Assembly (NCBI GenBank): GCA_026770585.1
Contig: MU646346.1
Coordinates: 834,349 to 856,729, forward strand
Direction: 5' to 3'
DNA: 22,381 nucleotides
Source of the DNA: Baffinella frigidus
Lineage: Eukaryota; Cryptophyceae; Cryptomonadales; Baffinellaceae
Each line of letters starts with the position of its first letter. Position 1 is the stretch's first letter. This document shows, in pieces, positions 209 through 20,500 of this stretch. The position numbers were made by a program, and so were the translations under genes. The notes under the pieces are model-generated. The model made no database searches. It was given only the letters and a program-made list of their open reading frames with translations, and was not told the origin of the DNA.

Positions 209-3200
209 GTGGACGAGCGGCGGAACCTCGCGGTGCCCTCCGCGCCGGGCGGGGAGGGTCCGGGCTTCGGGGTGGTTGTCGACGGCTCGCAGGTGATGGT
301 GTTTGACGCCGCGGACCCGCGCGAAGTGGTGGGCGTCCTCGACCTCGGCGACCTCGGCACCGTCACCCACGGTGCAAACCCTACACCCTGAACCCTGAAT
401 CTCCCCGAGGTTCCTCGTCAACTTTTCGTCTCAACCTTGCTCGTCAACTTGTGCGGTCTGCTTTTCTAGTCAACTTGAGAGAACTTGCGGAACACCACCA
501 CCCCACGACAGGGTTCTCGACGCTGGATCCACTTCATCGCCTTCATCAGGTTATGAGAGGGCGCCATAACCAGGTTATGAGTGGGCGCCCTCTCGTAACC
601 TTGAGAAACGTGCCCACAACTTTAAGGAACGTGCCTGTAAACTTACGGTCTGTAAACGCAAGGATGTCTTTAAACGTAACGCCAATAAAGTTAAGGTGTG
701 CAAACGTAAGGATGCCTATAAACGCAAGGCCCATAACCTTAAGGGCCTACAAACATCAGAAATGCTACCCTCCCTCCTGACACACAAACACACGCACAGG
801 GGTCTCGGCGCTCGACGCGTCCTGTAAATGTATGGACTGTGCCAGTAAACTTAAGGACTGTGTCTGTTAACTTAACGCAACTTATCGAATGCAGGGGTCT
901 CGGCACTCGACGCGTCCTATAAACGTATGGACTGTGCCTGTAAACTTAAGGAATGTGTCTGACGCACAACTTAAGGAATGTGCCTGTAGACTTAACGCAA
1001 CGTATCGAATGCAGGTGTCTCGGCACTGGACGCGTCCGGCGACACGATCTACTTCATCGCCGGCGGCGCCCTCTCATATCCTTTATAAACGTGCCCACAA
1101 CCTTAAGGAACGCGCCTCTATAAACGTGAGGACTGTGTCTTTAACCTTCAGGGAAATGCCTGTAGCCTTAAGGAATGTGTCTAAGGCCTAACCTAACAAC
1201 TTAAGGGAAACTTAACTTAAGGGACATGGAGGAATAAACCCTAAACCATCAACCCTCCCACCGCACAGGGGTCTCGGCGCTGGACGCGTCCGGCGACACC
1301 ATCTACTTCATCGCCGGCGGGGCCCTTGCGGCCGTGTCCCTCTCGTAACCCCCAACCCCTTAAACCCTAAACCCTAAATCCTGAACTTTAAACCCCAAAC
1401 CTCAAACCCCAAACCCTAAACCCCAAACCCTAAACCCTAAAACCCAACCCCCAAACCCTAAACCACAAACTCTAGATCCTGAACCCTAGACCCCAACCCC
1501 CTCTCTTCCTCTTTCCCTCATGCTCGAGCCCTTCCCCAGGTCTCCCGCGGTGGCGCACGTCCCGCTGCGCGCGCCCGACGCTTTGATGGGGGGCTTCGTC
1601 TCGATGGAGTGGGACCCTGCGCGCACGCGCCTGGTCGGGCTGGCCCTGCTGGACGGCGAGATGGCCGTGGCCGCGCTGGACGTGACGCTCGGGAACGTCT
1701 CGAAGCTCGCTGACCTCCCGGCGTGCGGCACGTGCGAGTGCTCCCCGGCACAGGTGCTCCCCCCTGAGAGAGAGAGAGTGCGGTATACAGCACCTGTGCG
1801 GGGGAGCACAGGTGCTCCTCCATCAACCCCAAGCGCCTCCCCCGCCGTGTCAGTATTTGAATCCCAAGCGCCTCCCCCGCTGTGTTGGTGTTGGTATACG
1901 CGTCTCTCCCGATGTGTCGGTGTTGATGTACGCGTCTCTCTGCGAGTGCTCCCCCGTAAAGGTCCGATAAACCCTAAACCCTAGACCGTCCGTCCACGCC
2001 CTCTTCTCGAACCGCCCTGGGCCTAACTAGGTTGCAGAAGACACTAGATGAGGACCATATCTCTCCCTCTGTGGTCCCTCTGTGGTGGTATTGATATATA
2101 ACACTCGCTCTCTCTCTCTCTCTCTCTGTTGGTATTGATCTAACGCTCTCTCTCTCTCCCCCTCCCTCCCTCCCTCTCTCTCACTCACTCTCTCTCCCTC
2201 TCTCCCTCCCTCTCCCTCTCTCTCTCCCTCTCTCTCTCCCTCTCTCTCTCCCTCTCTCTCTCCCTCTCTCCCTCTCTCTCTCTCTCCCTCTCTCGGCAGG
2301 GCGTGTCAGCGCTCGACGCAGAAGCGGGCGTGTACTACCTCGCGTCCCAGGTGTCCCTCCACCCTAAACTTTAACCCCTAAACCCTGATCCCCCATCACT
2401 AGAGCCTAAACCCTAACCCCTAAACCCTGATCTCCCATCACTAGACTCTAAACCCGAAGCCCTAAACCCTGATCTCCCATCACTAGAGCCTAAACCCTAA
2501 CCCCTAAACCCTGATCCCCCATCACTAAACCCCAAACCCTAAACCCTGATCCCACATGACTAGCGCCTGGCCCCTAAGCCCTAAACCCTGATGCAGGTGA
2601 CCCACCCTAAACCCGAACCACCAACCCTCAACCCTAACCCTGATGCAGGTGACGCTCCTCGGGGTCTCAGCAGGCGACGGATCCCTGGTCTCGTACACGA
2701 CCGTGGTGCACGGCAACCGACCGTTCAACGGCTTCGCGTCCCTGGAGTTCCACGCCCCCGGGGGCGGGGCGGGGGCGAGCCTCGGGCTGCTCGGGGTCGC
2801 GCTGTTGGGGGAGGACGTGGAGCTGGTCAAGGTCGACCCTGTCACTGGTGCGGCTACGCCCGAAACCCGAAACCCTGAACCCTCACTCCCCAACCCGAAA
2901 CCTTCAACGCTCACCCCGAGAACTACACCCTACACCCTAAACCCCAAACCCCAAACCCCAAACCCCAAATCCCAAACCCCAAACCCCAAACCACAAACCC
3001 CAAACCCCAAACCCTAGGCACCCTCGAGTCGATCGCGTACATCTTCGATGCCGACTTCTCCGGGCAGGTCAGCCCTAAACCCTAAACCCTGAACCCTGAA
3101 CCCTGAACCCTAAACACCAAACACCGAACACCGAACACCGAACCCTAAATCTTGAACACCAAACCCTAAATCGTGAACCTGAACCCCAAACCCTGGGCAG

Positions 3201-4343
3201 GTGTTCGGGGGCATCTCAGCGCTCACCCCCTCGGGGTCGCACTACATGGTAAACCCCAAACCCCAAACCCCAAGCCCCAAGCCTCAACCTGTAAAGGCGG
3301 TGCCGAGGCGGGTCCGTCGTCTCTTTTTGCCCCACACCCTCATTCCGCAACCCTAAATCCGCAGGTGCTCTCGCACGCGCGGCTCCTGGCGGTCGACCTC
3401 GCCACGCGCGTTGTCTCGCACTACAACCCGTATGCCTCCGAGGTACCGCAACCTCCGCCCTCCGTAGTCCAAACCCCTAAACCCTGAGCCCTGAACCCAA
3501 AACCCAAAACCCAAAACCTAAAACCCAAAACCCAAAACCCGAAATCCAAAACCCAAACCCCAACCCCTAAACCCCAAACCCCAAACCCCTTTTTAGGGGT
3601 TGGGGTTTCCCTTATCCAAAAACAAAATAATAATAATAATAATAATAATGATAATAATACTAAATTATAACTCCCAAACAATTAACACGCATCCCTAAAC
3701 AGGTGTCCGAGGTGTCCAACTCCGGCGGGCAATGGGGCTTCCTCGAGATGTCGTCCTTCCTCCCCCCCGACTTCTCGGCCCTCCCCGACTCCTCCTCCGT
3801 CGTGAACGCGAGCGCGTCAGCCCCGCCGCTGGACGTGTCCGCGCTCGACATCAGGATCCTGCACCTCGAGGATTCTCTACCGGTAACCGTCGCTCCCTCT
3901 CCCTCTCTCCCTCTCCCCCACTCCCCCACTCTCCCACTCTCTCTGAACTCATTCTGACATCAGAATCTGGCACCTTGAGGCCTCGCTCCCGGTAACCCTC
4001 CCTACTTCGCGGTGACGAATAGTGCTGACAAATAGTATTGTAGTGCTGACTAACAGTATTATAGTGCTGACCAATAGTATTATAGCGCTGAGTCATAGTT
4101 TAATAGTGCTGACTAAAAACACGGAACCAGGTCCGGCCCGGCGGCGCGGGGAGCTACTTCGCGGTTCAGGTTACGGGCCTCGATGTTTTCGCGAACGACT
4201 CGCTCAAGGTCCATCTATAACCCTAACCCCGAAACCCGAAAACCTGAAGCGCACGCCCTAACCACAACCCCTGAATCCTCTGGGGACTCCCGCAAGGTCG
4301 CGCGCCCGAAACAGGGAGAGACCTTCATTGATAATACTGAACC

Positions 4344-4424
<81 letters not shown>

Positions 4425-7400
4425 ACCCCTCCCGCCAGGTGGCCCCCGCGGGAGGATGTCTCGCGACGCTCCCGGGCGGCGAAGCGACGTTGCTCGGGGC
4501 GGACGGGGCCGCGACGGTGTCCTTCGCGCTCGCGCTTACTACGAGCCATGTACCCCCCCCCGATCTCCCGCTAACCCTACACCCTGCACCCTGCACCCTG
4601 CACCCTGCGCCCTGCGCCCTGCACCCTGAACGATCCTGAATAAGGTCTGGGACCATCCTGAACCCTGAACCTCCAACGCAGGCGCCGGGGACTGAACAAA
4701 ACTGACGCCCTATTCACCCAACTGACGCCCTGTCCACCCAACTGACGCCCTATCCACCCAACTGACGCCCTATCTTCCCGTATCAGGCGCCGGGGGCCGC
4801 GCAGCTGTGCTACCGGCGCGCCGCGGATGCCTCGGGCGCGTGGCGGGAGGTCCCCCCCCAACCCGAAACCCGCAACAGCAACCGGGACCCGCAACAGCAA
4901 CAGCAACAGGGTGCGTGTCCTCGCGTAACAAGGACACGCACCGCCCCTGGGCCCCTAGGACTAGCCCTTCCGTATACCCGAAATGCTGCACCCGAACCCC
5001 GAAACCCTACACGCTACACCTTCAACCCGCAACCTTAAACCCGAAAGCTGTGCTACCGGCGCGCCGCGGATGCTTCCAGCATCTGTCCCGATGAAAAGGC
5101 GTATGATAGCATCATTGTATGCCTGAAATAGCATATACACCCCTAACTTCCGCGTGGGGAGCCTAAGATAGCGGCGCGTGGCGGGAGGTGCCCCCGAAAC
5201 CCGAACCCTTGAAACCTAACCCTTGAAACCTTGAAACAAGAAAACCGAAATCTGGATTCCTACACCCCGAACCCCGAAACAATAAATAATGATAAATGGT
5301 TAACAATAAACAAAAAACAAAAAACAAAAAACAATAAACAATGAACAATAATCCCGGAACGGTGCACCAGGTGATGTGGGGCGAGGCGCAGGACCAGCTC
5401 ACATTCCCTGCACCCGAAATCCCACACCTGAAACCAGATATCCTAATCCCGAAACCCGAAATACCCAACTCCCTACACTCTCAGGTTCAAAACTTAACCC
5501 CTGAACACGACTCAGGTGATGTGGGGCGAAGCGCGGGAAAGGCTCACGTTCCCGCTCACCATGGCGGCCTTCCAGGTTTGAACCCCTAAGCTCCTTCTTC
5601 TTCTTCTTCTTCTTATGTGTTACCAAAACCCTAAACCCTGAACATTAAACCCTGAAGCCTAAGCGTGAAACCCGAAACCACTCACGTTCCCGTTTACTAC
5701 GGCGGCGTTCCAGGTTGCCAAACCCAAAACCCAAAACCCGAAACCCGAAACCCGAATCCCTCCCCCAATGAATACACCCATGGACACCAAACACTCTCCC
5801 CAAACCCCGCCCACTATCCCCCCACCCCCAAACCTAAAAAGGGTCTATTGAAAAGGGGCCTGTTGGTCTTGCCTACGTGATTCTTGATATTCGACTGGGA
5901 AAATCCAATTTAGTTCGGGCCCTAATTCAACTTATCGCCCACCTACTATCACAATTAGGAGAACTTTCTATCGAAATTCAACATCAACTCCCTTCCAGGT
6001 TGCGCCGCTGCCTGTCCCGGTGGGGCTGCCCGTGCAGCTGCGGCTCACGGGGAACATCAAGACGGGCGACCGATTCCTCATCGTCCTCGACGACAACTCG
6101 GTGCGTCCCAACCTTCTAATTTCACGTGGGATTATGTAACACCCCAACCCCTAATCGTTAATCCCTGAACCCTAAACCCTGAACCCTGAACCCTAAACCC
6201 CAAACCCTAAACCCTAAACCCTGAACCCTAAACCCTAAACCCAAACCCCTAAACCCTAAACCCTGAACCCTAAACCCCAACGCAGGTGAACCCACTGGGC
6301 CTGTGCGTGGCTCATAGGAGTTGGACCCAGATTAATTAGGGCCCGAACTAAATTTAATTAGGGCCAGAACCCGGTTTGGTCGTCCGTTTTCTTTTATATT
6401 AAACATGGTCCCCCCCGACGCAGGTCAACCCTCTGGACCTTTGCGTCGCGGCTTCGGCCTCGGCGGCCGCTGCGACTGACGGGACATCTGACTCCTCTTC
6501 GATCCTCTACCCCGGCACGCGCGTCATGGCCGTGGTGAGCACCCTATCCACCCAACTGACGCCCTACCCTGCCAAATGACGCCCTATCCTTCCAACTGCC
6601 GCGTGCAACTGCCGCCCTATCCTCCCAACCGACGCCCTATCCTCCCAACTGACGCCCTATCCTCCCATACCAGGTGTCGGTGGGCGCGCTGCAACTCCAC
6701 GCACACGCCTACGGCGCGTGGACCGAGGTCATCTCATCCCCCTTGTACATCGGTCCATTTATATTCGTGCTACTTTTTTGTTTTCGTGGTACTAATTAAC
6801 AACTGCTCAGTACACCCAATATTTAAATACCCGACGTTTCGCAGGTAACCTCGGACGTGCTCCTCGCGCCCGGCGGCGGCGCGCCCCTCCGCATGTGCTA
6901 CTCTGCGTCCGGCGGTACTCCCTACACCCCAAACCTCGCTCGCTCTCTCTCTCTCTCCTTCTCTCGCTCTCGCTCGTTCTCTCTCTCTCTCTCGCTCTCG
7001 CTCGCTCTCTCTCTCTCTCCTTCTCTCGCTCTCCTTCTCTCCTTCTCTCGCTCTCTCTCTCTCTCCTTCTCTCGTTCTCTCTCGCTCGCTCTCTCTCGCT
7101 CTCGCATGTGCTACGCTGCGTCCGGCGGTGCACCCTGCACCCTACACACTACACACTAAGCCCTACACCCTGAACCCTGGACCCTACATTCTAAACCCTA
7201 AACTATAAACCCCAAACCCAAAACCCAAAACCCAAAACCCAAAACCCAAAACCCAAAACCCAAAACCCAAACCCCAAGCCCCAAATCCCAAACCCCAAAC
7301 CCCAAACCCCAAACCCCAAACCCCAAACCCCAAACCCCAAACCCAAACCCCAAACCCCAAACCCTAACCCCCAAACCCCCCCAGGGCCCTTCACACTCAT

Positions 7401-7524
7401 GCTCGGCACAGGCCTCGACGCAGCGGGGGGGGTCGTCCTCGAGGGGTCGCAGATGCCCGTCGCGGGTGAGGGGGAGCCGTCGTCTGTCACGCCTCAGTGC
7501 GCCCACGCTGCCGTGGCTGCCTAG
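209..7524 (+). CDS. Multi-exon protein with propeller-like blades and C-terminal Cys repeats (5' partial)
   Basis: Exons by eye: 209-371, 1269-1344, 1540-1753, 2300-2350, 2649-2847, 3018-3067, 3201-3248, 3365-3442, 3703-3882, 4131-4208, 4439-4549, 4787-4849, 5516-5575, 5999-6100, 6424-6534, 6674-6727, 6845-6914, 7385-7524 (TAG). All 17 introns are GT-AG, the phases agree, and joining gives 615 open codons; no start codon is seen. Residues about 20-290 form blade-like units in which two types alternate: one begins GVSALDAS / GVSALDAE / GGISALTP, the other FVSMEWDP / FASLEFHA, each closing with LLAVDLAT- or LVKVDPVTG-like strands. This suggests a beta-propeller. Residues about 354-600 hold two looser repeats with a GLDVFANDSLK / GNIKTGDRFLI strand and Cys motifs (QLCYRR, LRMCYS), possibly Ig-like or surface domains. 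Function unknown. Every exon start is G, and 13 of 18 start with GT. The exon chain is well supported; the fold is inference. Confidence 0.75.
509..550 (+). pseudogene. Decayed copy of the start of exon 1269-1344
   Basis: An acceptor-like CAG is followed by a diverged match to the GVSALDAS...IYFIA coding start, including a shared ACTTCATCGCC core. It lies upstream of the real exon. A separate short match to that exon's end plus donor (GGGCGCCCTCTCGTAACC) is at 583-600. Confidence 0.6.
798..827 (+). pseudogene. Partial copy of the start of exon 1269-1344
   Basis: ACAG plus GGGTCTCGGCGCTCGACGCG matches the acceptor and first codons of the real exon (VSALDAS), then similarity stops abruptly in the minisatellite. 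Confidence 0.75.
891..919 (+). pseudogene. Partial copy of the start of exon 1269-1344
   Basis: GCAG plus GGGTCTCGGCACTCGACGCG again copies the acceptor and first about 20 bases of the exon, then diverges at the same point as the copy at 798-827. Confidence 0.75.
1011..1076 (+). pseudogene. Near full-length copy of exon 1269-1344 without a donor
   Basis: It encodes VSALDASGDTIYFIAGGA in frame behind GCAG|GT, almost identical to the real exon. The end reads CTCTCATATC where the real exon has CTCTC|GTAACC, so the 5' splice site is missing. It could once have been an alternative exon. Confidence 0.75.
1345..1500 (+). repeat. CCCTAAA-type intron array
   Basis: Irregular CCCTAAA, CCCCAAA and CCCTGAA units fill most of the intron between exons 1269-1344 and 1540-1753, C-rich on the sense strand. 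Confidence 0.9.
2101..2295 (+). repeat. (CT)n / (CCCT)n microsatellite
   Basis: A long impure CT-rich tract runs directly into the acceptor of exon 2300-2350 and could act as an extended polypyrimidine tract. Confidence 0.95.
2378..2580 (+). repeat. Tandem repeat of about 45-65 bp in an intron
   Basis: The segment CCTAAACCCTGATC followed by CCATCACTAG recurs about four to five times. It mixes telomere-like units with a conserved CCATCACTA block. A short copy of the next exon's acceptor region (CTGATGCAGGTGAC) is at 2588-2602, ahead of the real one at 2640-2654. Confidence 0.75.
2880..3015 (+). repeat. CCCCAAA-type intron array
   Basis: About a dozen AACCCCAA units, all C-rich on the sense strand, end in the acceptor of exon 3018-3067. 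The intron at 3068-3200 is filled the same way, with ACACCGA variants. Confidence 0.9.
3624..3661 (+). repeat. (AAT)n microsatellite
   Basis: An AT-rich trinucleotide tract inside the intron 3443-3702, otherwise filled with CCCAAAA units. Confidence 0.9.
3956..3998 (+). pseudogene. Copy of the end of exon 3703-3882 with its donor
   Basis: GACATCAGAATCTGGCACCT and what follows match the last about 36 bases of the exon (coding DIRILHLEDSLP) and keep the CCG|GTAACC donor. It lies about 75 bases downstream of the real donor and could act as a second 5' splice site. Confidence 0.75.
4020..4117 (+). repeat. Tandem repeat of about 25 bp
   Basis: Five units of the type AGTGCTGACTAACAGTATTAT occur just upstream of exon 4131-4208. 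Each contains a CTGAC or CTAAC-like element that resembles a splicing branch site. A 12-base match to the exon (CTACTTCGCGGT) precedes the array. Confidence 0.8.
4340..4428 (+). repeat. (AACCCTC)n array
   Basis: About 12.5 nearly perfect 7-mer copies sit just before the acceptor of exon 4439-4549. The homogeneity suggests a recent expansion. Confidence 0.95.
4677..4693 (+). pseudogene. Copy of the start of exon 4787-4849
   Basis: GCAGGCGCCGGGG repeats the acceptor and first ten bases of the exon about 105 bases upstream of the real site. Confidence 0.6.
4699..4782 (+). repeat. Tandem ACTGACGCCCTATCCACCCA
   Basis: Four to five copies of a roughly 20-bp unit precede the acceptor of exon 4787-4849. 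The same unit fills the intron before exon 6674-6727 (6543-6670), so two introns of one gene share it. Confidence 0.9.
5047..5073 (+). pseudogene. Copy of the middle of exon 4787-4849
   Basis: A 27-base perfect match to the exon segment coding LCYRRAAD, about 250 bases downstream of the original. Confidence 0.85.
5173..5189 (+). pseudogene. Copy of the end of exon 4787-4849 with donor
   Basis: GGCGCGTGGCGGGAGGT copies the last 15 exon bases and the GT. The following bases (CCCCGAAACCCG) also resemble the real intron start. Confidence 0.8.
5369..5411 (+). pseudogene. Copy of the start of exon 5516-5575
   Basis: CAG|GTGATGTGGGGCGA begins a copy that encodes VMWGEAQDQLTFP, against VMWGEARERLTFP in the real exon, then decays into CCCGAAA repeat. 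It has an acceptor but no donor, and lies upstream of the real exon. Confidence 0.85.
5681..5714 (+). pseudogene. Copy of the end of exon 5516-5575 with donor
   Basis: CTCACGTTCCCG followed by a diverged match to the last about 33 exon bases ends TTCCAG|GT. It lies downstream of the real exon, the mirror case of 5369-5411. Confidence 0.8.
5907..6354. repeat. 21-bp perfect inverted repeat flanking exon 5999-6100
   Basis: The arm at 5907-5927 is the exact reverse complement of the arm at 6334-6354 (core TTCGGGCCCTAATT). The two arms lie in consecutive introns on either side of one exon. Confidence 0.9.
6283..6315 (+). pseudogene. Copy of the start of exon 6424-6534
   Basis: GCAG|GTGAACCC continues as VNPLGLCVAH, against VNPLDLCVAA in the real exon, then runs into a stop. 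It lies upstream of the real acceptor. Confidence 0.85.
6543..6670 (+). repeat. Second array of the ACTGACGCCCTATCC unit
   Basis: Six or so imperfect copies of the same 20-bp unit seen at 4699-4782 fill the short intron before exon 6674-6727. Confidence 0.9.
6938..7102 (+). repeat. (CT)n / CTCTCG microsatellite
   Basis: An impure CT/CTCG tract of about 165 bases separates exon 6845-6914 from a copy of its own end. Apparent Ser/Leu- or Arg/Glu-rich reading frames here are artefacts of the repeat. Confidence 0.95.
7103..7129 (+). pseudogene. Copy of the end of exon 6845-6914 with donor
   Basis: GCATGTGCTACGCTGCGTCC then GGCG|GT copies the exon end (coding RMCYSASG) with one change, and keeps the donor. 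Splicing here instead of at 6915 would insert the CT-tract. Confidence 0.85.
7180..7384 (+). repeat. CCCAAAA / CCCCAAA array in the last intron
   Basis: More than 20 units, C-rich on the sense strand, ending in the acceptor of the last exon. Confidence 0.9.
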
Positions 7525-7690: not shown

Positions 7691-7702
7691 CGGGGAGTAG
7701 GA

Positions 7703-7775
7703 CGGGCCCGCCTCGGGGCGAGAGGTTGGGATGGGCCCGCCTCAAGTTGAGAGGGTGGGACGGGCCCGCCTCGGG
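7703..7775 (+). repeat. ACGGGCCCGCCTC repeat, three copies
   Basis: Three spaced copies of GGACGGGCCCGCCTCGGGG-like units. The same unit forms a larger array at 16617-16745 and occurs inverted near 11505. Confidence 0.85.
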
Positions 7776-8158
7776 GGGGGAAGTCCTCCCAGGGAAAGTT
7801 GACTTTCTCTCTCTCTCTGGGAAAGTTGACGTCTCGCTCCGGTAGCGGAGTTGAGACCTAGGTTGAAGGCCGGGAGCTTGTGACGCGTCAAGGCGAACTT
7901 GCGCTCGGTCCAGATTATTGCAAAATCACGTGTAAATAAACTAGAATATAGCCATGACTTTCGAACTTTGTACTACGCGCATAATGGTTCTGATTACAGA
8001 TTACTGACATCATGATGGTTCAGTCAGACATGTGGACTGGAGGACATCTCTAGAGAGTGCGTCACCCCGGTGGTGTTGAGCGCCAAAGCATTTTTGGTGC
8101 TTACTCTCTCCAGGGAACTACGACTTCTCGAGGGCTCCAATCTTAATTCAACTGGTCA

Positions 8159-8425
8159 GGAGTTCCCCGAATGCACGAAAATTACTACACACCTGGCGCT
8201 TTCAGTCGCGTTCAAGGCAAATGTGTAGTAATTTTTAGGTTCTTCGAGCGCCCAACATAGACGGACACTGGAACTTCTTCTGCAGAAAAGCCATGCTTCC
8301 TTTCGGATCACATGCAGCCCCACCCTCCCCGGTGCAGAGGATCGCAGCAGAAACCGGCTTGGTCCTAGAGTTGGGTGCTTGAGGTAGATCAAAGAGAACA
8401 CATTTTCGTGCATTCGGGGAACTCC
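8159..8425. mobile_element. Inverted-repeat element with 23-bp perfect ends
   Basis: The arms at 8159-8181 and 8403-8425 are exact reverse complements (GGAGTTCCCCGAATGCACG...). Inside, a 14-bp hairpin (AAAATTACTACACA and its complement, about 8178-8236) follows the left arm. TTAATT lies outside both ends. Non-coding. Confidence 0.7.
8235..8275 (-). repeat. Dispersed repeat R, inverted copy
   Basis: On the - strand it reads AGTTCCAGTGTCCGTCTATG...CGAAGAACCTAA, matching copies at 8596-8640, 11561-11606 and 16278-16327. Confidence 0.8.
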
Positions 8426-8595
8426 CAAGTAATTAAGGAAGCGTGGCCCACTATCCCCTCTTCACGAGCCTCTGCACTGGAGAGCTAAACGCGATCCGAA
8501 AGCAAAAATGCTTTTTCTGCAGATCTTTTCTACGGAAAGGCGTGTCGTTGGGCCATGTTGGGAGAAATCAAAACCTAAAGGACCTTCTCTGCAAA

Positions 8596-8640
8596 CCAGT
8601 TCCGGTGTCCGCCTATGTTGGGAGCTCGAAGAACCTAAAG
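8596..8640 (+). repeat. Dispersed repeat R
   Basis: CCAGTTCCGGTGTCCGCCTA, then TGTTGGGAGCTCGAAGAACC. It is preceded by GATCCGAAAG...TTTCTGCAGA (from 8493), which is itself inverted at about 8270-8310, so the region 8235-8640 is a large imperfect inverted duplication. Confidence 0.85.
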
Positions 8641-8791
8641 AACCTGAAATTAAATGCCTGGCGGGATGACAGAAATCTCGCAGTGCGCAGGTTCCTCTAC
8701 GGGTCGAGAAACCCGGCTCAGGCAGACATGTGGAGAGGATAAAGGCCTTAGGTTACGGAACCCTCTGGGCAGCAAGGTCAAAGGAGGACCT

Positions 8792-8912
8792 ACAGGGGTA
8801 TCTCGCACATAAGAAAGCGCGCCCCCCCCTAGGACCACTGTAGGGCCCTAGGCATAGGCCTACTGTAGGTTCCTAGGGGGAGGCGGTTTCTTATGAGCGA
8901 GGTACCCCATGT
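8792..8912. mobile_element. MITE-like element, family 2, copy a
   Basis: The ends ACAGGGGTATCTCGC and GCGAGGTACCCCATGT are inverted repeats. The core contains CACTGTAGGGCCCTAGG. It is diverged at the right end compared with the copy at 14557-14677. Confidence 0.8.
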
Positions 8913-8950
8913 GCCCCTAATGCAGAGGTAAGCATCACGGGTACGGGTAC

Positions 8951-9010
8951 GAGCCCGCCTCGGGAATGACGTACACAGCAGTGGATCCAACGTCATCCCG
9001 AGGCGGGCTC
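8951..9010. repeat. Hairpin with about 21-bp arms
   Basis: GAGCCCGCCTCGGGAATGAC is inverted at 8990-9010 with a single-base insertion. The arm shares the GCCCGCCTCGGG core of the repeat at 7703-7775. Confidence 0.8.
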
Positions 9011-9095
9011 AATCTAGCCTAGGTCCGCACAGTTCCCCTAATGCTTACTTCTTCATCAGGGGTACAGTGTCGGAGTCCCACTCCTTGCGAGTGGA

Positions 9096-9140
9096 CAACT
9101 GCGAGGTCCACTTAGTGGTCAAAAGCGGACCTCGCAGTTG
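9096..9140. repeat. Hairpin with 14-bp perfect arms
   Basis: CAACTGCGAGGTCC at 9096-9109 pairs with 9127-9140; weaker pairing continues outward. Confidence 0.75.
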
Positions 9141-9401
9141 GCCCACTTTCACTCCTACCCTCTCCCAGACTCTGTAATAAGGTTGTGACCACGCCGCGCT
9201 TTGGGGTCCTGGCTTTCTATTCGATTCGGCTATTAATTTTGTTGTTGGTGCACATTTGCGAGTTAATGGACAGTCATGGACAGCGCGCACGAATTCCGTG
9301 CGCGGCTGTGCTTTAAGATTGGGGGCTGGTCAAACTCTCGGCGGAAGAAAGAGACGAAACACGGTACTTCTGGTCCCAAAGGTTCTCTCTTTAGATACAC
9401 G

Positions 9402-9950: not shown

Positions 9951-9996
9951 TGTGTGGTAGGCCCGATGGCTTTCTCTTCATGCTTTCTCTTTTTGC

Positions 9997-10686: not shown

Positions 10687-10737
10687 AGAGAGAGGGAGAG
10701 AGGGAGAGAGGGAGAGAGGGAGAGAGAGGGAGAGGGA
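10687..10737 (+). repeat. (GAGAGG)n tract abutting the gap
   Basis: A purine-rich microsatellite runs directly into the run of N. This is the usual cause of such an assembly break. Confidence 0.95.
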
Positions 10738-11560: not shown

Positions 11561-11606
11561 CCAGTTCCAGTGTCCGCCTACAGTCAGAGCTCGAACAACC
11601 TGAAGG
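11561..11606 (+). repeat. Dispersed repeat R in the TPR gene flank
   Basis: CCAGTTCCAGTGTCCGCCTA...GCTCGAACAACCTGAAGG, a diverged copy just beyond the stop codon of the - strand TPR-like gene. Confidence 0.75.
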
Positions 11607-11612
11607 TCCTCA

Positions 11613-13161
11613 CTATGGGTCCCACAGGGGAAAGGGGGATGGCGGCGTGCACTTGTGAAAGCCCAGCTTGTTCTTCCACTGCATACGCTCCTTCTCCTAG
11701 TTTAGGGTTTAGGGTTTGGGGTTTAGGGTTTGGGGTTTGGGGTTTAGGGTTTAAGGTTTAGGGTTTGGGGTTTAGGGTTTGGGGTTTAGGGTTTAGGGTT
11801 TAGGGTTTAGGGTAAGGGTTTAGGGTTTAGGGTTTAGGATTTAGGGTTTAGGATTTAGGATTTAGGGTTCAGGGTTTGAAGTTTAGGGTTTGGGGTTTAG
11901 GGTTTAGGGTTTAGGGTTTAGGGTTTAGGGTTTAGGGTTTAGGGTTCAGGGTTAAGGGTTTAGGGTTTAGGGTTTAGGGTTTAGGGTTTAGGGTTCAGGG
12001 TTTAGGGTTTTGGGTTTAGGTTTTAAGGTTTATAGTTGAGGGTTTAGGTTTGGGGTTTGGGGTTTGGGGTTTGCCTCATGAGCCGGATCGAGCACCATGT
12101 CCATGATGGTGTGGTACAGCAGATTCGGGAACCCCGTGTTTGCCCTAAAAAAATCATCGCGGAGGTGCGGGTTCTGGAACGCTAGTTCGAGGAGGGCGCG
12201 GTAGTCCTCGGTGGCCTCGTCAGGCTGTCCGCGTGCCTGCAGGGAGCGGGGTGGTTGGGGTTTAGCGTGCAGCGTGTACGGGTTAGGCGGTAAGGTTCGG
12301 GTGTGGGGTCTTCCCACTTCAGGTTTTTGGGCCCACGCGGTAAGAAAGGTGACTGGGGGGCACGTGGAGCGGAAGGGGCGAGCAGTGTGAAGGGTGAGGA
12401 GGCACAGGACCGTGGGGAGCCGCGCGCTGGCGCGGAGGCTCAGCAGCTCGTGATACGACAATTCTCCTCTCCTGCGCGACTCCGTCTTGGCTGCAAATCG
12501 ATAGACCGGAACGAAGTGAGAAAGGTTTCTCGAAGATTGCGTGTCTTCGATTGCGTGTGTGGCGAAGAGCGCCTGGGTGAAAAATTCGAGAATCATGAGA
12601 AAAACGAGGTTGTCCTGGTCGTCATGGAACTTCGCCAGTGAAAGCGCATGGCGCAGAAGCCTGGACCTCTGGACCAAGCGGCAAGCGCTAGACCACCTTC
12701 TCCACCGCCTCGTCGTTCCTTCCCTCCTGAAACGCCTTCTGCCCGAGCCCTTGGCACGTCCTGGACTCCACCTCCGAGAAGCCGTGCGCTGTGCCGATCG
12801 CGCGTGCCCCTTTGAAGAACCGCTCGGCTTTCACTCCGTCGCTCATGTCTCCAGACGGAGAACGGTGAGGCGGGAGGATGTCGAGTGCCCTTTTCAAGAA
12901 CATGTCCACTTTCTCTGAGCCAGCCTCCATTAGGAGGAGGTTGTTGGCCAGCTCGCACAGTGCAAGAGTGCTTTCGCGGAGCCTCCCCATCTTGGCCAGG
13001 AGGTCGGTCCGCCGCTCCTCCAGCCGGACGTACTCGCGCCCATGCTCTTTCCCTGCGGCGTCCTCCTTGAAGTCCAGAAAGTACAGCAAGTGAGCATGAT
13101 TGAAGTTGGAGAGGATCGTGTCCGAGGCAGCTTCTGACGAAGCATCCAGCAGCTCTTCCAT
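11613..13161 (-). CDS. TPR-like repeat protein, - strand paralogue, probably damaged
   Basis: Exons on the - strand: 13161-12697, 12668-12411, 12236-12075, 11696-11613 (TAG). The product aligns almost end to end with the + strand gene at 13473-15350 (shared GKEHGR, YHELLSLRASARL, DYRALLELAF, MVLDP). It belongs to an alpha-helical TPR-like family that I recall as multicopy in microalgae; the function is unknown and protein binding would be expected. Homology extends upstream to about 13209 (EVKAAEWLGILEWEGR), but no in-frame ATG is seen there, so the start at 13161 is only the first Met. Oddities: a 28-base interruption with an in-frame TAG (12696-12669), an internal duplication (KVDMFLKRA / KAERFFKGA), and a last intron (12074-11697) that starts with GC rather than GT. 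Either a pseudogene or a gene with an unusually small intron. Confidence 0.65.
11701..12074 (-). repeat. TTTAGGG array forming a GC-AG intron
   Basis: About 50 TTTAGGG and TTTGGGG units on the + strand, which is CCCTAAA on the sense strand of the - strand gene. It fills the whole last intron between ...CATGAG|GCAAAC and CTAG|GAGAAGG. Confidence 0.9.
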
Positions 13162-13209
13162 GCGCCCCTCCCACTCGAGGATCCCAAGCCACTCCGCCGC
13201 TTTAACCTC

Positions 13210-13472
13210 GCTCAGAGAATTAGCGACGGTGATGTTTTGATGGAAAAAAAAGTTTTTTCTTGCTCCCGGGAGGGGTATTTTCTGTTCGTTCTTGGAGCCG
13301 TTTGCTTGTTCTTGGAGCTGTTTGTCAACTTTTGGCCGAGATGGAACCTGGCTCCGAAAAACCTAAAGAAATTGACTTTTGAAATACCCCCCTCCAGAGA
13401 CCTGCGCGGTACTGGTCAAATCAACAAGCTCCATAAGTCAAAGAACGTTTCTCTCTTTGCGGTTCATCGACA
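13210..13472. promoter_or_regulatory. Shared region between two divergent genes
   Basis: About 260 bases separate the head-to-head paralogues and presumably carry both promoters. It contains GGGAGGGGTATTT (13268-13280) inverted near 13382-13395, a direct repeat of GTTCTTGGAG (13288 and 13308), GTCAACTTTT and ATTGACTTTT, and a remnant like repeat R. No TATA box is obvious. Confidence 0.45.
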
Positions 13473-15350
13473 ATGCAGCGCACGCCCCTGAAGGAGGTTG
13501 AAGAGCACGTGAAAGCGGCGGCCGCCAATGGTGACTGGCAGTGGATACTCAAGTGGGAGGGGCGGATGGAAGAGCTGCTGGAGAATGTGTCGGAAGCCGC
13601 CTCCAACACAATCCTCACCAACTTCAAGCAGGCGCACTTGATGTGCTGGGTCGACTCCAAGGAGGATGCGGCGGGAAAAGAACATGGGCGCAAGTACGTC
13701 TGGCTGGAGGAGCGACGGATCGACCTCCTGGCCAAGATGGGGAGGTTCCGCGAAAGCGCTCTTGCACTGTGCGAGCTGGCAAACAACCTTCTCCTACTGG
13801 AGGCTGGCTCAGAGAAAGTCGAGCGGTTCTTGAAAAAGGCTCGCTTGATCGGCGCAGCGCACGGCTTCTTGGAGGTGGAGTCCATGGCGTGCTACGGGCT
13901 CGGGCAGAAGGCTGTGCTGCAGGGGAGGAACAAAGATGCGGTGCAGCTTCTGCGCCATGCGCTGGCAGCGGCGACGCAGATCGGCAATGTAAAGGAGCAG
14001 AGCGGCACCTCGTTCCTGAACCTTCTCGAATCGTACACCCACGCGCTCTTCAGGACAACCGCAATCGAAGAGGTGGCGCCGCTCGTTCAGATCTACCGAG
14101 AGGCAGCCAAGGCGGAGTCGCGCAGAAAAGGCCAGATGGCGTATCACGAGCTGCTGAGCCTCCGCGCCAGCGCGCGGCTCCACAAGGTCCTGTGAATCCA
14201 CACTCCTCCACACTTACCCCCCCTTCTGTTTCCGCGTGGAGCCCCTTCACGCTGCTCGCCGCCTGGGCCCAAAACACAACCCCCCCCCCGCTCCCTGCAG
14301 GCACGCGCGCGGCCGCACGAGGCCACCAAGGACTACCGCGCCCTCCTCGAACTAGCGTTCAAGAACCAACACCTCCGCACAGCCCTCCACCGCGAGAACC
14401 CGCACTATCCGGTTCGCTTTCCCTGAACCCCTAAACTTCACTCTAACTCCATCATCTCTGAACCCGAAACCTTCAACCTTCAACCTTCAACCTTCAACCT
14501 TCAACCTTCAACCTTCAACCTGACACCCGACACCCGAAATCCGAAACCCCAACCCCTACAGGGGTACCTCGCTCATAAGAAACTGCTCCATCCCTAGGAC
14601 CACCGTAGGGCCCTAGACATAGTCCTACTGTAGGGTCCTAGGGGGAGGCACGTTCTTATGAGCGAGGTACCCCTGTATTCTGAGCGTTCTGATTTATTAG
14701 AGAGGTTTAGCAAGGCTCTTCCCCATGCCAAGCTCAAGGTCGGTACCGCCGGTTGAAACTCCCTACACCAACGCGAGTGGTGTAAGTAGTAGACTCTGTC
14801 CTTTTTCCTGACGCCTCGAGGCACGGAGTTGTCGAGGAGTCACCTACCCAGAGTCGTATATCACCAAGTATCCTGTAAGTGGTGAGTAGGCTCATACGCC
14901 CTACGGTAGGGCCCTAGGACCTCTCTAGGGCGAGTTAGGGCGAATATCCGCGGGTGAATGTTCACCCTATGGTCACTAAAGGGGTACTAAGGTAAAGGGG
15001 CCGCTCGTAGGTCCTGCTGCAGGAGACCATCGAGGACATGGTGCTCGATCCGAACAACGCGGCAAACCCTAACCCCTAAACCCCAAACCCCGAATCCCAA
15101 ACCCTCAACCCTCAACCCTCAACCCTAAACCCTCAACCCTAAACCCTTGAACCGAATCTCAAACCCCCAAACCCTCAACCCTCAACCCTAAAACTTAACC
15201 CTCAACCCTCAACCCTCAACCCCAAACCCTAAACTCTAAACCCTTAACCCTACACCCTGAACCCTACACTAGGGGGAGGAGCGCCTCCAGTGGAAGTTCA
15301 AGCTCGGCTTCATCCAGATCTGGGGGGTGTCGGGCAGCCCCCCGTGGTGA
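13473..15350 (+). CDS. TPR-like repeat protein, + strand paralogue
   Basis: Exons: 13473-14186, 14301-14411, 15011-15061, 15273-15350 (TGA), 317 residues. The ATG at 13473 gives MQRTPLKEVEEHVKA and is the first in frame. The protein is helical. GDWQWILKWEGRMEELL (20-36) starts the conserved part; helical pairs follow around 97-128, 130-168 (GAAHGFLEVESMACYGLGQK, then LLRHALAAA) and 198-260 (AIEEVAPLVQIYREAAKAES, SARLHK|ARARPHEA). Alignment with the inverted paralogue fixes the exon borders: HYP|VLLQETIEDMVLDP and DPNNA|GEERLQWKFKLGF. Intron 3 (15062-15272) begins GCAAAC, a GC-AG intron conserved in the paralogue; introns 1 and 2 are GT-AG. Intron 2 (14412-15010) is absent from the paralogue and carries two MITE-like elements. 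Function unknown, probably a protein-interaction scaffold; family recognition is from memory. Confidence 0.8.
14471..14520 (+). repeat. (CTTCAAC)n array
   Basis: Seven perfect 7-mer copies inside the paralogue-specific intron 2 of the + strand TPR gene. Confidence 0.95.
14557..14677. mobile_element. MITE-like element, family 2, copy b (best preserved)
   Basis: 121 bp. The ends form a perfect 25-bp inverted repeat including the flanking TA (TACAGGGGTACCTCGCTCAT..., inverted at 14653-14677). The TA at both edges looks like a TA target duplication. The core CCGTAGGGCCCTAGAC is also palindromic. It sits in intron 2 of the + strand TPR gene. Confidence 0.9.
14869..14986. mobile_element. MITE-like element, family 1, copy b
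   Basis: It shares GAGTAGGCTCATACGCCCTA and the following GGTAGGGCCCTAGGACC with the copy at 7530-7633. Its termini are diverged but still inverted. It is in the same intron as the family 2 element at 14557. Confidence 0.8.
15062..15272 (+). repeat. CCCTAAA / CCCTCAA array forming a GC-AG intron
   Basis: About 25 telomere-like units, C-rich on the sense strand, fill intron 3 of the + strand TPR gene. Confidence 0.9.
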
Positions 15351-15354
15351 TGGC

Positions 15355-15471
15355 CGGAAGTGCACCAAATCGAGATTGTGACTTGGGCCATTTCCTTCGT
15401 GGGGCCGGTCGAAAACGACCGGCTGCCCGAAGGAAAGGGCTCAACTTACATCCTCGTTTGGTCCACTTCTG
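15355..15471. mobile_element. Foldback element beginning four bases after the stop
   Basis: Arms of about 57 bp pair imperfectly around a short loop (GGCCGGTCG-AAAA-CGACCGGCTGCC). The left arm begins CGGAAGTGCACCAAATCGAG and the right arm ends CGTTTGGTCCACTTCTGA. It must lie in the 3' UTR of the + strand TPR gene. Confidence 0.85.
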
Positions 15472-15473
15472 AG

Positions 15474-15512
15474 GGCAGGTGGAACTAGTGGAAGTTCAGG
15501 CTTGGCTGCGGG
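15474..15512 (+). pseudogene. Possible partial copy of exon 15273-15350
   Basis: AGTGGAAGTTCAGGCTTGGCT resembles the exon core CAGTGGAAGTTCAAGCTCGGC, downstream of the foldback. Short, so chance is not excluded. Confidence 0.45.
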
Positions 15513-15530
15513 TCTAGCTCTCTCTCTCTC

Positions 15531-15630
15531 AGTCTATTTGGGCCCACCAGTTTGGTGAGCCCGGGCTCTTTCCCGCCCCAAAGTTGACGAATTTGAACCA
15601 CAATCCCAGCATGTCAACTTGGGACTAGTC
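15531..15630 (+). repeat. AAAGTTGAC module, copy 1
   Basis: AGTCTATTTGGGCCCACCAG, a hairpin ending GAGCCCGGGCTC, then AAAGTTGACGAATTTG...CCCAGCATGTCAACTTGGG. The pair AAGTTGAC and GTCAACTT frames about 30 bases. Confidence 0.85.
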
Positions 15631-15674
15631 AGTCCGCAAGAGTGAGGGGGGGCTAGAGTCTGGGAAAGAGTAGG

Positions 15675-15765
15675 AGCCCCCCCCAGGACCGCGATAGGGC
15701 CCTAGATAGGCCTACTGTACGGGCCTAGGAGGGTGCGGCTCCTTATGAGCGAGGCACCCCTGTAG
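15675..15765. mobile_element. MITE-like element, family 2, copy c (left end lost)
   Basis: The right end CTCCTTATGAGCGAGGCACC and CCTGTAGG matches family 2 and the core GGGCCCTAGATAGGCCTACTG is present, but the left terminal repeat is not recognisable. A second right-end copy (CTCCTTCTGAGCGAGGCATC) follows at about 15795-15820. Confidence 0.7.
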
Positions 15766-15925
15766 GGTGTAGGGTTTGGGGTTTTGGAGGATGCAGCTCC
15801 TTCTGAGCGAGGCATCCCTGAAGGGTGAAGGGTTTGGGGTGCACAGAGTTGTCGTCGAGGACGATAAGACAGCGCGAAGGAGAAGGAGTAGGAGGGTTTA
15901 GGGTGCAGGGGCATCGGGTGTAGGG

Positions 15926-16032
15926 TATCCCTCAAGTTGCCACGGGGGTCAAAAGTGACCCCCGCCAGGTCCTAGACAGGTCATAGGGCCCTGCGGTAGG
16001 GCGTATGAGCCTACTGGCCACCTGAGGGACGG
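15926..16032. mobile_element. MITE-like element, family 1, copy c (inverted)
   Basis: It has TATCCCTCAAGTTGCCAC at the left and GGCCACCTGAGGGAC at the right, with CCCTGCGGTAGGGCGTATGA inside, the reverse orientation of the copy at 7530. An extra hairpin, GGGGGTCAAAAGTGACCCCC, occupies one arm. Confidence 0.75.
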
Positions 16033-16127
16033 GTGTGGGGTTTAGGGTTTGCGCGGCGTCGCATGCCCCGCGACATGGGCAGTGCCCCATCTGTGAGGGG
16101 GGGACGGACTCGGGCGTAAGACGGGCG

Positions 16128-16248
16128 TACACGGGTACCTCGCTAATAAGAAAGCGCCTCCTTCTAGGACCTTACAGTAGGGCTATGCCTAGGGCCCTAT
16201 GATGGTCCTAGGGGGGGTGCGCTTTCTTATGAGCGAGGTACCCCTGTA
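16128..16248. mobile_element. MITE-like element, family 2, copy d
   Basis: TACACGGGTACCTCGCTAAT at the left is inverted as TTATGAGCGAGGTACCCCTG at the right, 121 bp in all, with TA at both edges and a palindromic GGGCCCTA core. Confidence 0.85.
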
Positions 16249-16277
16249 GGACAATGCCCAAGGACCTGCGGCCTGAA

Positions 16278-16327
16278 CCCAGTTCCGGTGTCCGCCTATG
16301 TTGGGAGCTCGAAGAACCTAAAGGACC
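16278..16327 (+). repeat. Dispersed repeat R
   Basis: CCCAGTTCCGGTGTCCGCCT...GGGAGCTCGAAGAACCTAAA, almost identical to 8596-8640. Both lie within about 150 bases of a family 2 element. Confidence 0.85.
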
Positions 16328-16616
16328 TAAAGGACCCAAACCTCGGGCATCCCCGTAACGCCCCGTCGCAAAGCCTGTCCATCTGAGAGAGAGAGACGGC
16401 CACTTTATTGAATACAGGCATGGCAGCACGACAGCGTCAAGTTTCACCATCTTCCCTTTTGGAGCACTTTCTAAGTTTCTGTAAAGCGTAAAAACACCGG
16501 GCAATCCGCGTGTGCCGGCGAAACACGAGGCACCCTCCACACCATAGTTTATTCCAGCGACAGGAAAAAAAGGGCCGCGCCCCCCGCAGCCCCGGGCCCA
16601 CCTCAGGACGCAGTGT

Positions 16617-16745
16617 AAGGACGGGCCCGCCTCGGGACTGAGTCCACGGACGGGCCCGCCTCGGGAGAGGACGGGCCCGCCTCGGGACTCCGCCTCAGGA
16701 CGGGCCCGCCTCAGGACTGGGTCTTTGGACGGGCCCGCCTCAGGG
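16617..16745 (+). repeat. GGACGGGCCCGCCTCGGGACT array
   Basis: Five or six copies of a roughly 20-bp GC-rich unit with variable spacers; an isolated further copy is near 16915. Confidence 0.9.
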
Positions 16746-16950
16746 CTGAGTGTGCCAGCACGGAGGCTGTGGTGCGTAAAAATCGCTAGGACCCTACGGA
16801 GGCGATACCGTAGGGACATAGGATGGTCCTACGGAGATCCTGACCGATTTAGGGCAGTACGCGGATCGCAGCTACTGCCTCTGCCCTCTCGAGGAGCGTG
16901 GGTCGCTCCTCGTGAGGCCCGCCTCGGGACCGGCCTTAGGGTTGAGTCTC

Positions 16951-17050
16951 AGTCTATTTGGGCTCGCCAATCTCGTGAGCCCGGGGTCCTCCCCGCGCCA
17001 AAGTTGACGGATCCGCACCGCACGCCCAGCACGTCAACTTTGGAATAGTC
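16951..17050 (+). repeat. AAAGTTGAC module, copy 2
   Basis: AGTCTATTTGGGCTCGCCAA...CCAAAGTTGACGGATCCG...CCCAGCACGTCAACTTTGG. A further CGTCAACTTTGGAATAGTC repeats just downstream. Confidence 0.85.
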
Positions 17051-17239
17051 CGCGAGCCAACGTCAACTTTGGAATAGTCAGCGAGCCAACCCGGAGCGAG
17101 GACGCGCTTGATTTGAAGGCCGCGTCAACTTTCGAACAGCCCTCCAGTCAAAAGTCAAGAAGAGTAGGAAGCGCTCAGTTGAACGACGCGAAAGTGCCGC
17201 GGGTTGTGATCGGCCCAGCGCCGCGGTTTGAGTTCATGG

Positions 17240-17520
17240 GCCTGGATTAGGGTTTAGGGTTTCGGGTTTCGGGTTTCGGGTTGAAGGTTCAGGGTTAAGG
17301 GTTTAGGGGTTAGGGTTTAGAGTTTAGGTTTGAAGGTTTAGGGTTTTGGGATTTGGGTTTGGGGTTTGGGGTTTAGGCTTTCGGAGTTGGGGATTCGGGT
17401 TTCGGGTGCAGGGTTTTGGGTTTTGGGTTTTGGGTTTTGGGTTTTGGGGTTTTGGGTTCAGGGTTTGGATTTTGGGGTTCGGGGTTTCGGGTTTCGGGTT
17501 TAGGGTGTAGGGTGTAGGGT
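17240..17520 (-). repeat. TTTAGGG / TTTCGGG / TTTTGGG array after the PDZ gene stop
   Basis: On the sense strand of the - strand gene this is CCCTAAA-like and starts with the stop codon itself (TAAACCCTACACCC), so it forms the 3' UTR or the next intron. Confidence 0.85.
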
Positions 17521-20500
17521 TTACATGGATGCGAGGCCATTGGATCTCTGCTGGGGGATGGAGCCGTAGAGAGGGGCGGTCACCCCACCCTCCGTGTACT
17601 CTGACAGGCGCGATTGCTTCATGGATTGGACCTGGAGGGGCAATGATCCGTTTATTGGTCAAAAGGGGGTGTCACGAGGTGGTCACGCGGTTCTAGTGCC
17701 CCCATTAACCGACGGATAGCGTTCTGCTGACACGTCCGTGCCGCCCTCCGCGTACTCGGAGACGCGGGATTGCTCCTGGATTGGACGTGCACATGGTTTC
17801 AGGGGGTGTCACGAGGTGGTCACGCGGTACTTGTGCCCCCATTCACCGAGGGTTCAGGGTTGAGGGTTCAGGGTTCAGGGTTCAGAGTTCAGGGTGCCAG
17901 GTTCAGGATTTTGGGTTCCGGGTGTTGGGTTTAGGGTGTAGGGCGTAGGGTGTAGGGTGTAGGGTTCAGGGTGTAGGGTTCAGGATTCCGGGTTCCGGGT
18001 TCCGGGTGTAGGGTTTAGGGTTTAGGGTTTAGGGTGTAGGCTTCAGGGTTTCGGCTTGAGGCTGTAGGGTGTAGGGTGTAGGGTGTAGGGTGTAGGGTGT
18101 AGGTACCGGGGGAGGTGGCGGCGGGGCCTGGAACCCGTTGTTTGGCGGCGCGTCCCTGCACCAAAGGGTTTGTTTTAGTTTGTTATAAAACCTTTGTTAG
18201 TTTTTTATAAAACATTTTTAATTTTTTGTAAACCTTGTAGGATTTATACAATGTTTGTTTCAGGTTCGAAAGTTTTAGGCCCAGTGCCTAATGTTGTATA
18301 GTTTTAGGCTCAGGGTGGCTGCGGGGCCCGGTACTCATTAATTCGCTGCGCGTCCCTGCACGAGAGGGTTTCGGGTTTCGGGTTCAGGATTGCAGATTTA
18401 GGGTTTAGGGTTTAGGCTTTGGGGCACGAAGGGGTTTTCGGGCTTCGGGTTTCGGGTTTCGGTTTCGGGTTTCGGATTCAGGGTTTCGGGTTTCGGGTTA
18501 AGGGTTTAGGGTTTAGGGTACCTGGCAGGCATCCACGAGCCGTGGCTCTGTCACTGCGCGTGCATGTGGTACGTGCCACATCACTGAACGGGCTAATCGC
18601 TGCGCTCAATTCCGGGCGGCCGGGCTCTTTTCCGCCCCAAAGTTGACGGATTTGTACCGCGAACCCAGCATGTCAACTTAGGAATAGTCCGTACCTGGCA
18701 GTCTATTCACTTGGGTTGACTGCCAGACTATTCTCAAGTTGACGTGCGGGGTGTGAGGTACACATCCGTCTGAAAAGAGCCCGGGCTCGCCAAATTGTTG
18801 AGAGCCCAAAAAGACTGCGAGGGAGGAATACCTGGAAGGGTTGTACTACTGCAAAGCCACAGAGGAAGTCTCAAAATTCCTGGACACGACACTAAAATTA
18901 CTTGTAGGTTACCTTTTGACGAATTTTGGTCACGTCCTTGGGGGTGAAAATTGCCTTTTGAGGAGAAAATGGCTCAAAAGTATGCGACACCAGAGTGTCG
19001 CGAACTTTTTGACACTTCCCCTGGGGCTTTTCAGTAGTAAGAGACGCGGCTTTGGAACTGGGAGTCCATGTTGTGTGCGCTAACGGACTATTCGATGCGC
19101 TCGATTCCGGGCGGAACCCCCCGAAAAGAGGAGGGCGCAGCACCAAAGTTGACGGATTTGTACCACATACCCAGCGTGTCAACTTTCGGATAGTCCGTAC
19201 CTGGATGGAATGTATGAGACGCGGCTCTGGAACTGCGAGTCCATGTTGTGTGCGCGGCGCAGGATCACCTGTTGGGGTTTGGGGTTTTGGGTTTGTGGTT
19301 TGTGGTTTGTGGTTTGGGGTTTATGGTTTGTGGTTTGTGGTTTGTGGTTTATGGTCTAGAGTTTGGGGGTTAGAGTTTAGGGTTTAGGGTTCAGGGTTTA
19401 GGTTTTAGGTTTTGGGGTTTAGGGTTCAGGGTTTAGGGTTTAGGGTTTCGAGTGTGGGGTTTAGAGTTTAGGGTTTAGGGTTTAGGGTTTAGGGTTTAGG
19501 ATTCAGGCATCAGGGGGGCGGGGAGGCATCACCGTGAGGGGCAACCCCTCCTTGAGCATCTCGAACTTGATCTGGTGTAGGGTTTAGGGTTTAGGGTTTC
19601 GGGTTTGGGGTCTGGGTTTGGGGTTTAGGGTTTGGGGTTTGGGTTCAGGGTTTAGGGTTTAGGGTTTAGGGTTTGGGGTTGAGGCATGAGGCATGAGGGA
19701 TTAGGGATGAGAGATGAGGGATGAGGGTTTAGTGGTTGAGAATTTGTGGGATGAGGGAACAGGGTTTACGGGTTCAGGATCAGGGATTAGAATTCATGGA
19801 TTACGCACTTGTTTGGATCGGATTAGGGTTTAGGGTTCAGGGATTTCCGGGTGCATGGATGTGTGTTCAGGGGTTCAGGATCAGGGATGGGGGATTAGAG
19901 TTCAGGAAAAACAGGGATGTTTGGGATGTTTTTCCAGGGATGTTTGGGATGTTTTTCCTGAACTCTAATCCCCCATCCCTGATCCTGAACCCCTGAACAC
20001 ACATCCATGCATGTGTGTTTGGGGGATTAGAGTACAGGAAAAACAGGGATGTTTGGGATGTTTTTCGTCACATCCCAAACATCCCTGATCCTGAATCCCT
20101 GAACACACATCCATGCACCCGGAAATCCCTAAACCCTAATCCGATCCAAACAAGTGCGTAATCCATGAATCCTCATCCCTGATCCTGAACCCGTCAACCC
20201 TGTTCCCTCATCAACATCCCTGCGTCACATCCCCAACATCCCTGAACTCAGGTGCAGGGATGTTTGGGATGTGACGGCGTTTTTTTCTTACCTCGGTCGA
20301 GATGTCTTTATATTATTTTTACCACACACTGTGGCCACTTTCAGATTGAAACCAAGGATTCCTGGGTAAATCAACTTATGTAAGGTTTAGGAAATCCGGA
20401 TTGGAGGATAATTGACCTCTGTACCCTCCTCCCCGAGCATGAGGAGGCTACGCTAGACCTGAGGGTGGTCAATCGCAAAAGTCAACTCCTCACCGCCGCG

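Follow-up and report, generated by a model that had tools for sequence, protein, structure and literature searches.

How do pieces of a gene's own exons come to lie inside its introns, and what places nearly all of them on one particular side of the exon they resemble? The question is raised by a stretch of 22,381 nucleotides (nt) from the cryptophyte Baffinella frigidus (assembly GCA_026770585.1, contig MU646346.1, positions 834,349 to 856,729 of the forward strand), referred to as a whole as the window, which contains an 18-exon gene on the + strand and a PDZ-domain gene of six exons on the - strand. In the introns of both genes fragments of their own exons are found which are real, local, in the same orientation as their source and nearly always on the side predicted for local duplication, that is, upstream of the exon if they carry its 5' end and downstream if they carry its 3' end; two families of fragments contain plain tandem copies. 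Short segments that cross exon edges were probably duplicated locally on repeated occasions, and the fragments would be their relics. The whole claim concerns two genes in one window.

209..7524, + strand: 18-exon gene; exons 209-371, 1269-1344, 1540-1753, 2300-2350, 2649-2847, 3018-3067, 3201-3248, 3365-3442, 3703-3882
209..7524, + strand: 18-exon gene, continued; exons 4131-4208, 4439-4549, 4787-4849, 5516-5575, 5999-6100, 6424-6534, 6674-6727, 6845-6914, 7385-7524
17521..21703, - strand: PDZ-domain gene, 6 exons; exons 21703-21581, 20910-20827, 19571-19533, 19268-19201, 18155-18107, 17631-17521

Each exon of both genes was compared with the introns after masking with Tandem Repeats Finder (TRF), matches with a score of at least 13 being kept. 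Of the 16 matches obtained in this exon-only scan, all 16 lie in an intron adjoining the source exon, where 3.61 are expected by length. The corresponding controls gave one match (antisense introns), none (reversed introns) and none (introns of the other gene), and Markov shuffles at the same threshold gave a mean of 0.6 and a maximum of 2 (n=20); three matches, one of them at a score of 18 or more, were found in 9.4 kb of unmasked intergenic DNA (7701-17100, both strands). At a score of at least 15, 14 matches are retained, the antisense count is 0 and the shuffle mean 0.05. The matches are not all independent, exon 2 giving three and exons 12 and 13 and PDZ-gene exon 4 two each. The presence of exon fragments in the introns of both genes, as described in a first-pass annotation of the window, is thereby confirmed, and the self-comparison of the window proposed there, carried out independently with BLAST, yielded 15 same-strand exon-intron pairs versus one inverted pair.

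The side on which the fragments lie follows which end of the exon they carry. In the exon-only scan the 5'-end copies are located upstream of their source exon in 7/7 cases and the 3'-end copies downstream in 5/5, while the internal copies, which hold no exon end, are all downstream (4/4); sorted by fragment midpoint, upstream and downstream copies form two groups that do not overlap, an arrangement found in 1 of 11440 labellings. When 12-nt flanks were added to the exons, 23 matches and one antisense match (score 18.5, to exon 3) were obtained; 21 of the 23 carry an exon end, and 20 of these 21 fit the polarity. Three of the flank-scan matches are doubtful, namely exon 4 at 797-818 and PDZ-gene exon 4 at 21896-21884, neither of which lies in an adjoining intron, and PDZ-gene exon 4 at 18698-18684, which is largely repeat element; without them the polarity is kept in 17/18. 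Identity between copy and exon ranges from 73 to 100%. The fragments are as follows, exon numbers without further designation referring to the + strand gene.

508..639, + strand: whole-exon copy of exon 2 with an internal deletion; 5' part at 508-527, 3' part plus donor at 588-600; polarity exception
797..822, + strand: exon 2 5' end with AG; upstream
892..917, + strand: exon 2 5' end with AG; upstream; intron sequence in common with the 1012 copy
1012..1120, + strand: exon 2 copy, nt 1-58, about 95%, with AG; upstream; then probable 3' end piece from 1065
1941..1963, + strand: exon 3 copy near the 3' end; downstream; internal in the exon-only scan (nt 194-207 of 214), with flanks reaching the 3' end
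3956..4008, + strand: exon 9 3' end with GT; downstream; runs 12-17 nt into the intron
5046..5076, + strand: exon 12 internal piece, nt 17-47, 30/31; downstream
5173..5208, + strand: exon 12 3' end with GT; downstream
5368..5408, + strand: exon 13 5' end with AG; upstream
5681..5716, + strand: exon 13 3' end with GT; downstream
6280..6311, + strand: exon 15 5' end with AG; upstream
7104..7129, + strand: exon 17 3' end with GT; downstream; sole one of 12 whose use keeps an open frame
20414..20447, - strand: PDZ-gene exon 2 3' end with GT; downstream
19037..19080, - strand: PDZ-gene exon 4 internal piece, nt 14-57 of 68, neither end; directly after the repeat element with inverted ends
18520..18570, - strand: PDZ-gene exon 4, diverged copy; downstream; internal in the exon-only scan, with flanks reaching the 3' end with GT
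18314..18361, - strand: PDZ-gene exon 5 5' end with AG; upstream
17741..17848, - strand: PDZ-gene exon 6 5' end together with intron; matches its source 17711-17585 at 74% over 127; tandem unit about 137 nt; candidate exon 17775-17710

This catalogue departs in some points from the 18 coordinates of the first-pass annotation. Fourteen were recovered by the exon-only scan, 509, 2588 and 1805 appeared only with flanks, and 4677 was found by neither scan; at 2588, 4677 and 1805 the exonic identity beside the junction amounts to just 5, 9 and 6 nt, respectively. The copy at 19080 had been taken for a 3'-end copy and turned out to hold neither end, while the fragments at 5046-5076, 1941-1963 and 588-600 are additions.

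How such an arrangement would arise is readily pictured. A short segment spanning an exon edge would be duplicated side by side; whichever copy remained attached to the body of the exon would stay the working exon, and the truncated copy would be stranded outside, where it would then drift as intron. Since the copy that continues into the body of the exon counts by definition as the exon itself, the truncated one always ends up outermost. On these geometric grounds the polarity favours local duplication over an insertion of exon pieces at random, and the rule proposed in the first-pass annotation, although it fits local duplication, would be a consequence of the duplication geometry and not a separate rule. 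All fragments would have arisen by this route, the copies would be without function, and the intronic half of each duplicated segment may later have been lost as the CCCTAAA-like repeats crowding these introns turned over.

Duplicated units that still include intron sequence are preserved in two families. Among the exon-2 copies, 848-917 matches 968-1037 in 63/70 positions and 876-915 matches 996-1035 at 92.5%; in addition, the BLAST self-comparison aligns 584-639 with 1065-1120 (87.5%), from which it follows that the copy at 509, and probably the one at 1011, is a whole-exon copy with an internal deletion. Exon 2 itself has just 3-7 intron nt in common with these copies. In the PDZ gene, 17848-17741 and 17711-17585 have intron as well as exon sequence in common, according to the same self-comparison. 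The first-pass proposal of repeated tandem duplication across junctions is well supported as regards local duplication, yet tandem units sharing intron sequence are evident only among the exon-2 copies and at 17848-17585. Apart from the exon-2 family, the + strand gene seemed to lack local intron-intron repeats; this was not used, since repeats of that sort would for the most part be tandem arrays, which had been masked.

Several observations weigh against local duplication as the origin of the fragments. Ungapped extension beyond the junction covers 3 nt in 6/12 end-bearing copies and 7-21 nt in the rest, and the approximately 95% identical copy at 1012 is among those with only 3 nt, as is formally the PDZ-gene exon-6 copy, whose value is an artefact of ungapped extension since its gapped alignment goes far into the intron. 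The exonic part of the 12 end-bearing copies measures 15-58 nt and is longer than the intronic extension in 11/12. When the 25-nt flanks of 18 pairs were compared with gaps (four registers being off by a tolerated 1-2 nt), the source's own flank was the best match in only 1/18 pairs, and in 17/18 one or more unrelated flanks from the gene in question matched equally well. The distance between a copy and its exon is 49-741 nt, doubtful matches aside, so that most copies do not directly abut it. There is also one polarity exception, where the first-pass annotation had seen no clear one: the exon-2 3' end at 588-600, within the 509 copy, sits upstream of exon 2. Finally, a third gene, coding for a TPR-like protein (13473-15350, + strand; 4 exons and 3 introns, with exon bounds placed by eye), lacks junction copies, so that copy density is uneven even inside the window; its sole fragment is an internal piece of the last exon, downstream at 15487-15507.

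It is unlikely that point mutation alone would have erased the flanks beside copies of about 95% identity. Either repeat turnover and insertions would have replaced the flanks, or the copies would have arisen together with filler DNA, and the latter leads to another explanation. A staggered break near a junction would be filled in, thereby duplicating the exon edge with foreign or telomere-like filler between the copies; the filler would be the present spacer and the source of the new flank. Homology that often stops near the junction, flanks that seldom match best and the abundance of CCCTAAA-like repeats in the introns are all in line with such filler repair, and double-strand-break repair is among the intron-gain routes named in the cited part of PMC3443670. 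However, the two families contain tandem units with common intron sequence, repeat turnover could equally erase intron halves, and no young insertion with clean direct repeats turned up, although no dedicated search was made. Filler repair as the source of the fragments is accordingly assigned a minor share, well below an even chance. A related and more doubtful notion is that duplication was aimed at, or bounded by, the splice junctions, copies starting or ending no more than a few bases from AG/ or /GT (the slash marking the splice point). Breaks at these points, for instance where C-rich telomere-like introns are transcribed, would be repaired by exon-edge fill-in plus telomere-like filler; if this were true, introns would grow by capturing exon edges.

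Other origins fare worse. The introns themselves might have been born when AGGT-containing exon segments were tandemly duplicated (Rogers 1989 and Hellsten 2011, as cited in PMC4974935; the model also appears in PMC3443670), the fragments then representing the two halves. The likeness is local duplication with AG and GT motifs, and 14/22 exons do begin with GT after AG, with AG/GT at both ends of 7/22 introns. The donor-acceptor likeness predicted by this model is absent, however: donor and acceptor junctions belonging to one intron have 6.05 of 20 sites in common, versus 5.98 for other pairs (permutation p 0.45, 22 introns). The intron between exons 12 and 13, moreover, holds exon-12 copies and then an exon-13 copy, the reverse of the model order. 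An AGGT-type origin of these introns was therefore rejected, and is regarded as highly improbable. Scarcely better are the prospects for selection having preserved the copies as functional splice alternatives, whether sites or whole exons. AG or GT is retained in 11/12 end-bearing copies, the exon-17 copy offers an open extension (exon 17 to 7127), the candidate new exon 17775-17710 of the PDZ gene (- strand) is open in frame, and the exon-2 copy at 1012 differs at third positions only (3/3). Used as exon extensions, however, 11/12 copies shift the frame or meet a stop, only the exon-17 copy staying open, which led to the rejection of a function as in-frame alternative sites; and the database protein P0001 includes none of the intronic copies over exons 1-7. 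Of the spare splice sites seen in the first-pass annotation the motifs stand, while their use is improbable. Over 19 pairs, 40/72 copy-exon differences fall at third codon positions, a share above one third (p 8.8e-5) and not different from one half (p 0.21); a share near one half is what constraint on the exon but not on the copy would give. An early hand count had pointed, through an excess of differences at third positions, to coding constraint on the copies themselves, an idea dropped after this scripted count. The copies look like duplication relics, not like working parts. As to the candidate exon, the PDZ-gene copy at 17786 has AC in register with the AG of the exon's acceptor, and the AG before 17775 would, on our reading, sit deeper within the former exon.

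An origin in coincidental similarity, repeats or misassembly, for which the repeat-rich introns and the three listed fragments sharing 9 exonic nt or fewer might be quoted, has next to no probability, given controls near zero and a spread of identities unlike that of collapsed or mis-joined copies. Copies derived from mRNA were also considered and rejected: 20-mers over the 22 spliced junctions gave, with up to 3 mismatches, six matches, all at their own donor or acceptor site, so that no copy running across an exon-exon junction was found in the two gene regions away from its own splice site.

Local duplication, the reading preferred here, would be a process of known kind that is unusually dense at this locus. 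Tandem duplication is a genuine route of intron gain according to the cited portions of PMC3443670, PMC4974935 and PMC2891723, and in the potato RdRp gene a tandem duplication inherited the parental intron-exon junction signals (PMC4974935, in the portion cited). As in that case, existing splice signals are reused by duplication; unlike it, where a new intron was made, mostly inert-looking relics are found here within existing introns, several per gene. The cases in PMC2891723 likewise concern regional intragenic tandem duplications with an effect on splice positions, but these involve coding segments with proto-splice sites and not intronic relics. With introners, the transposon-made introns treated in PMC9860276, the window has in common one PDZ-gene intron that starts at an element with inverted ends bringing AG/GTACGG, whereas the exon-edge copies derive from exons and not from transposon sequence. 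Among the literature matches listed, covering titles and the beginnings of abstracts, in part only and with subscription journals mostly uncovered, nothing was found that describes relics of exon edges in introns with such a polarity. Intron lengthening and the origin of new splice sites are often inferred from single cases. With a dozen relics in two genes, some about 95% identical and some decayed, rate, breakpoints and fate would become countable, if the pattern is genome-wide.

With regard to the gene models, the exons of the + strand gene are separated by GT-AG introns and form a single open frame of 615 amino acids; in both genes exon bounds were set with GT-AG in mind, so that GT and AG use is partly by construction. 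A protein search with the + strand gene returned three relatives: P0001 (jgi), 91% identical over query residues 1-268, which joins exons 1-7; P0002 (jgi), 46% with 93% of the query covered; and P0003, 41% with 61% of the query. The exon model is supported because P0001 joins exons 1-7 and P0002 matches 93% of the query. Past exon 7, P0001 continues into intron-like residues and probably comes from a retained-intron transcript. No Pfam family was found for the protein at E 0.1 or better, which leaves the earlier label of a propeller-like protein unconfirmed. The start of 14/22 exons in both genes with GT after AG places Val at exon starts of the + strand gene; at these positions P0002 often has Ile, Leu or Val, as read by eye from the alignment. 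The product of the - strand gene contains a Pfam PDZ domain (E 9.8e-08), and its protein search returned one relative, P0004, which matches exon 2 (by eye). No relatives or orthologous genomic DNA were found in the viral contig and genome contig collections.

The window also contains various repeats. Telomere-like AACCC[T/C/G] repeats are C-rich on the sense strand, with 149 versus 3 in 209-7524, 45 versus 1 in 11700-13210, 29 versus 0 in 13473-15350 and 117 versus 8 in 17241-22381; this strand bias could result from selection against G-rich RNA or from a strand-biased origin. The repeat element with inverted ends (CCAGGTACGGACTATCC) is present in two copies, 19204-19082 and 18698-18587, which match over 65 nt at 88% and over 33 nt at 88%; the former supplies the AG/GTACGG donor at the end of PDZ-gene exon 4 and is an introner-like candidate. 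The TPR-like genes form an inverted pair (12887-13194 versus 13533-13840, 85% over 308 nt). A protein search with the TPR-like gene gave 32 relatives, none with an informative name, 22/32 of which carry Pfam PF01753, a family not found by Pfam in the 240-amino-acid frame scanned. An Rfam scan gave nothing at gathering thresholds. Hairpin elements with ends like GGGGTACCTCGCTCATAAGAAA (by eye) are located at 8790-8910, 14559-14675, 15660-15760 and 16130-16250 and are likely miniature inverted-repeat transposable elements (MITEs); their core pattern has no exact match in the viral contig collection. A 20-nt minisatellite of the AACTGACGCCCTATCCACCC type is common to two introns of the + strand gene, at 4700-4774 and 6542-6667.

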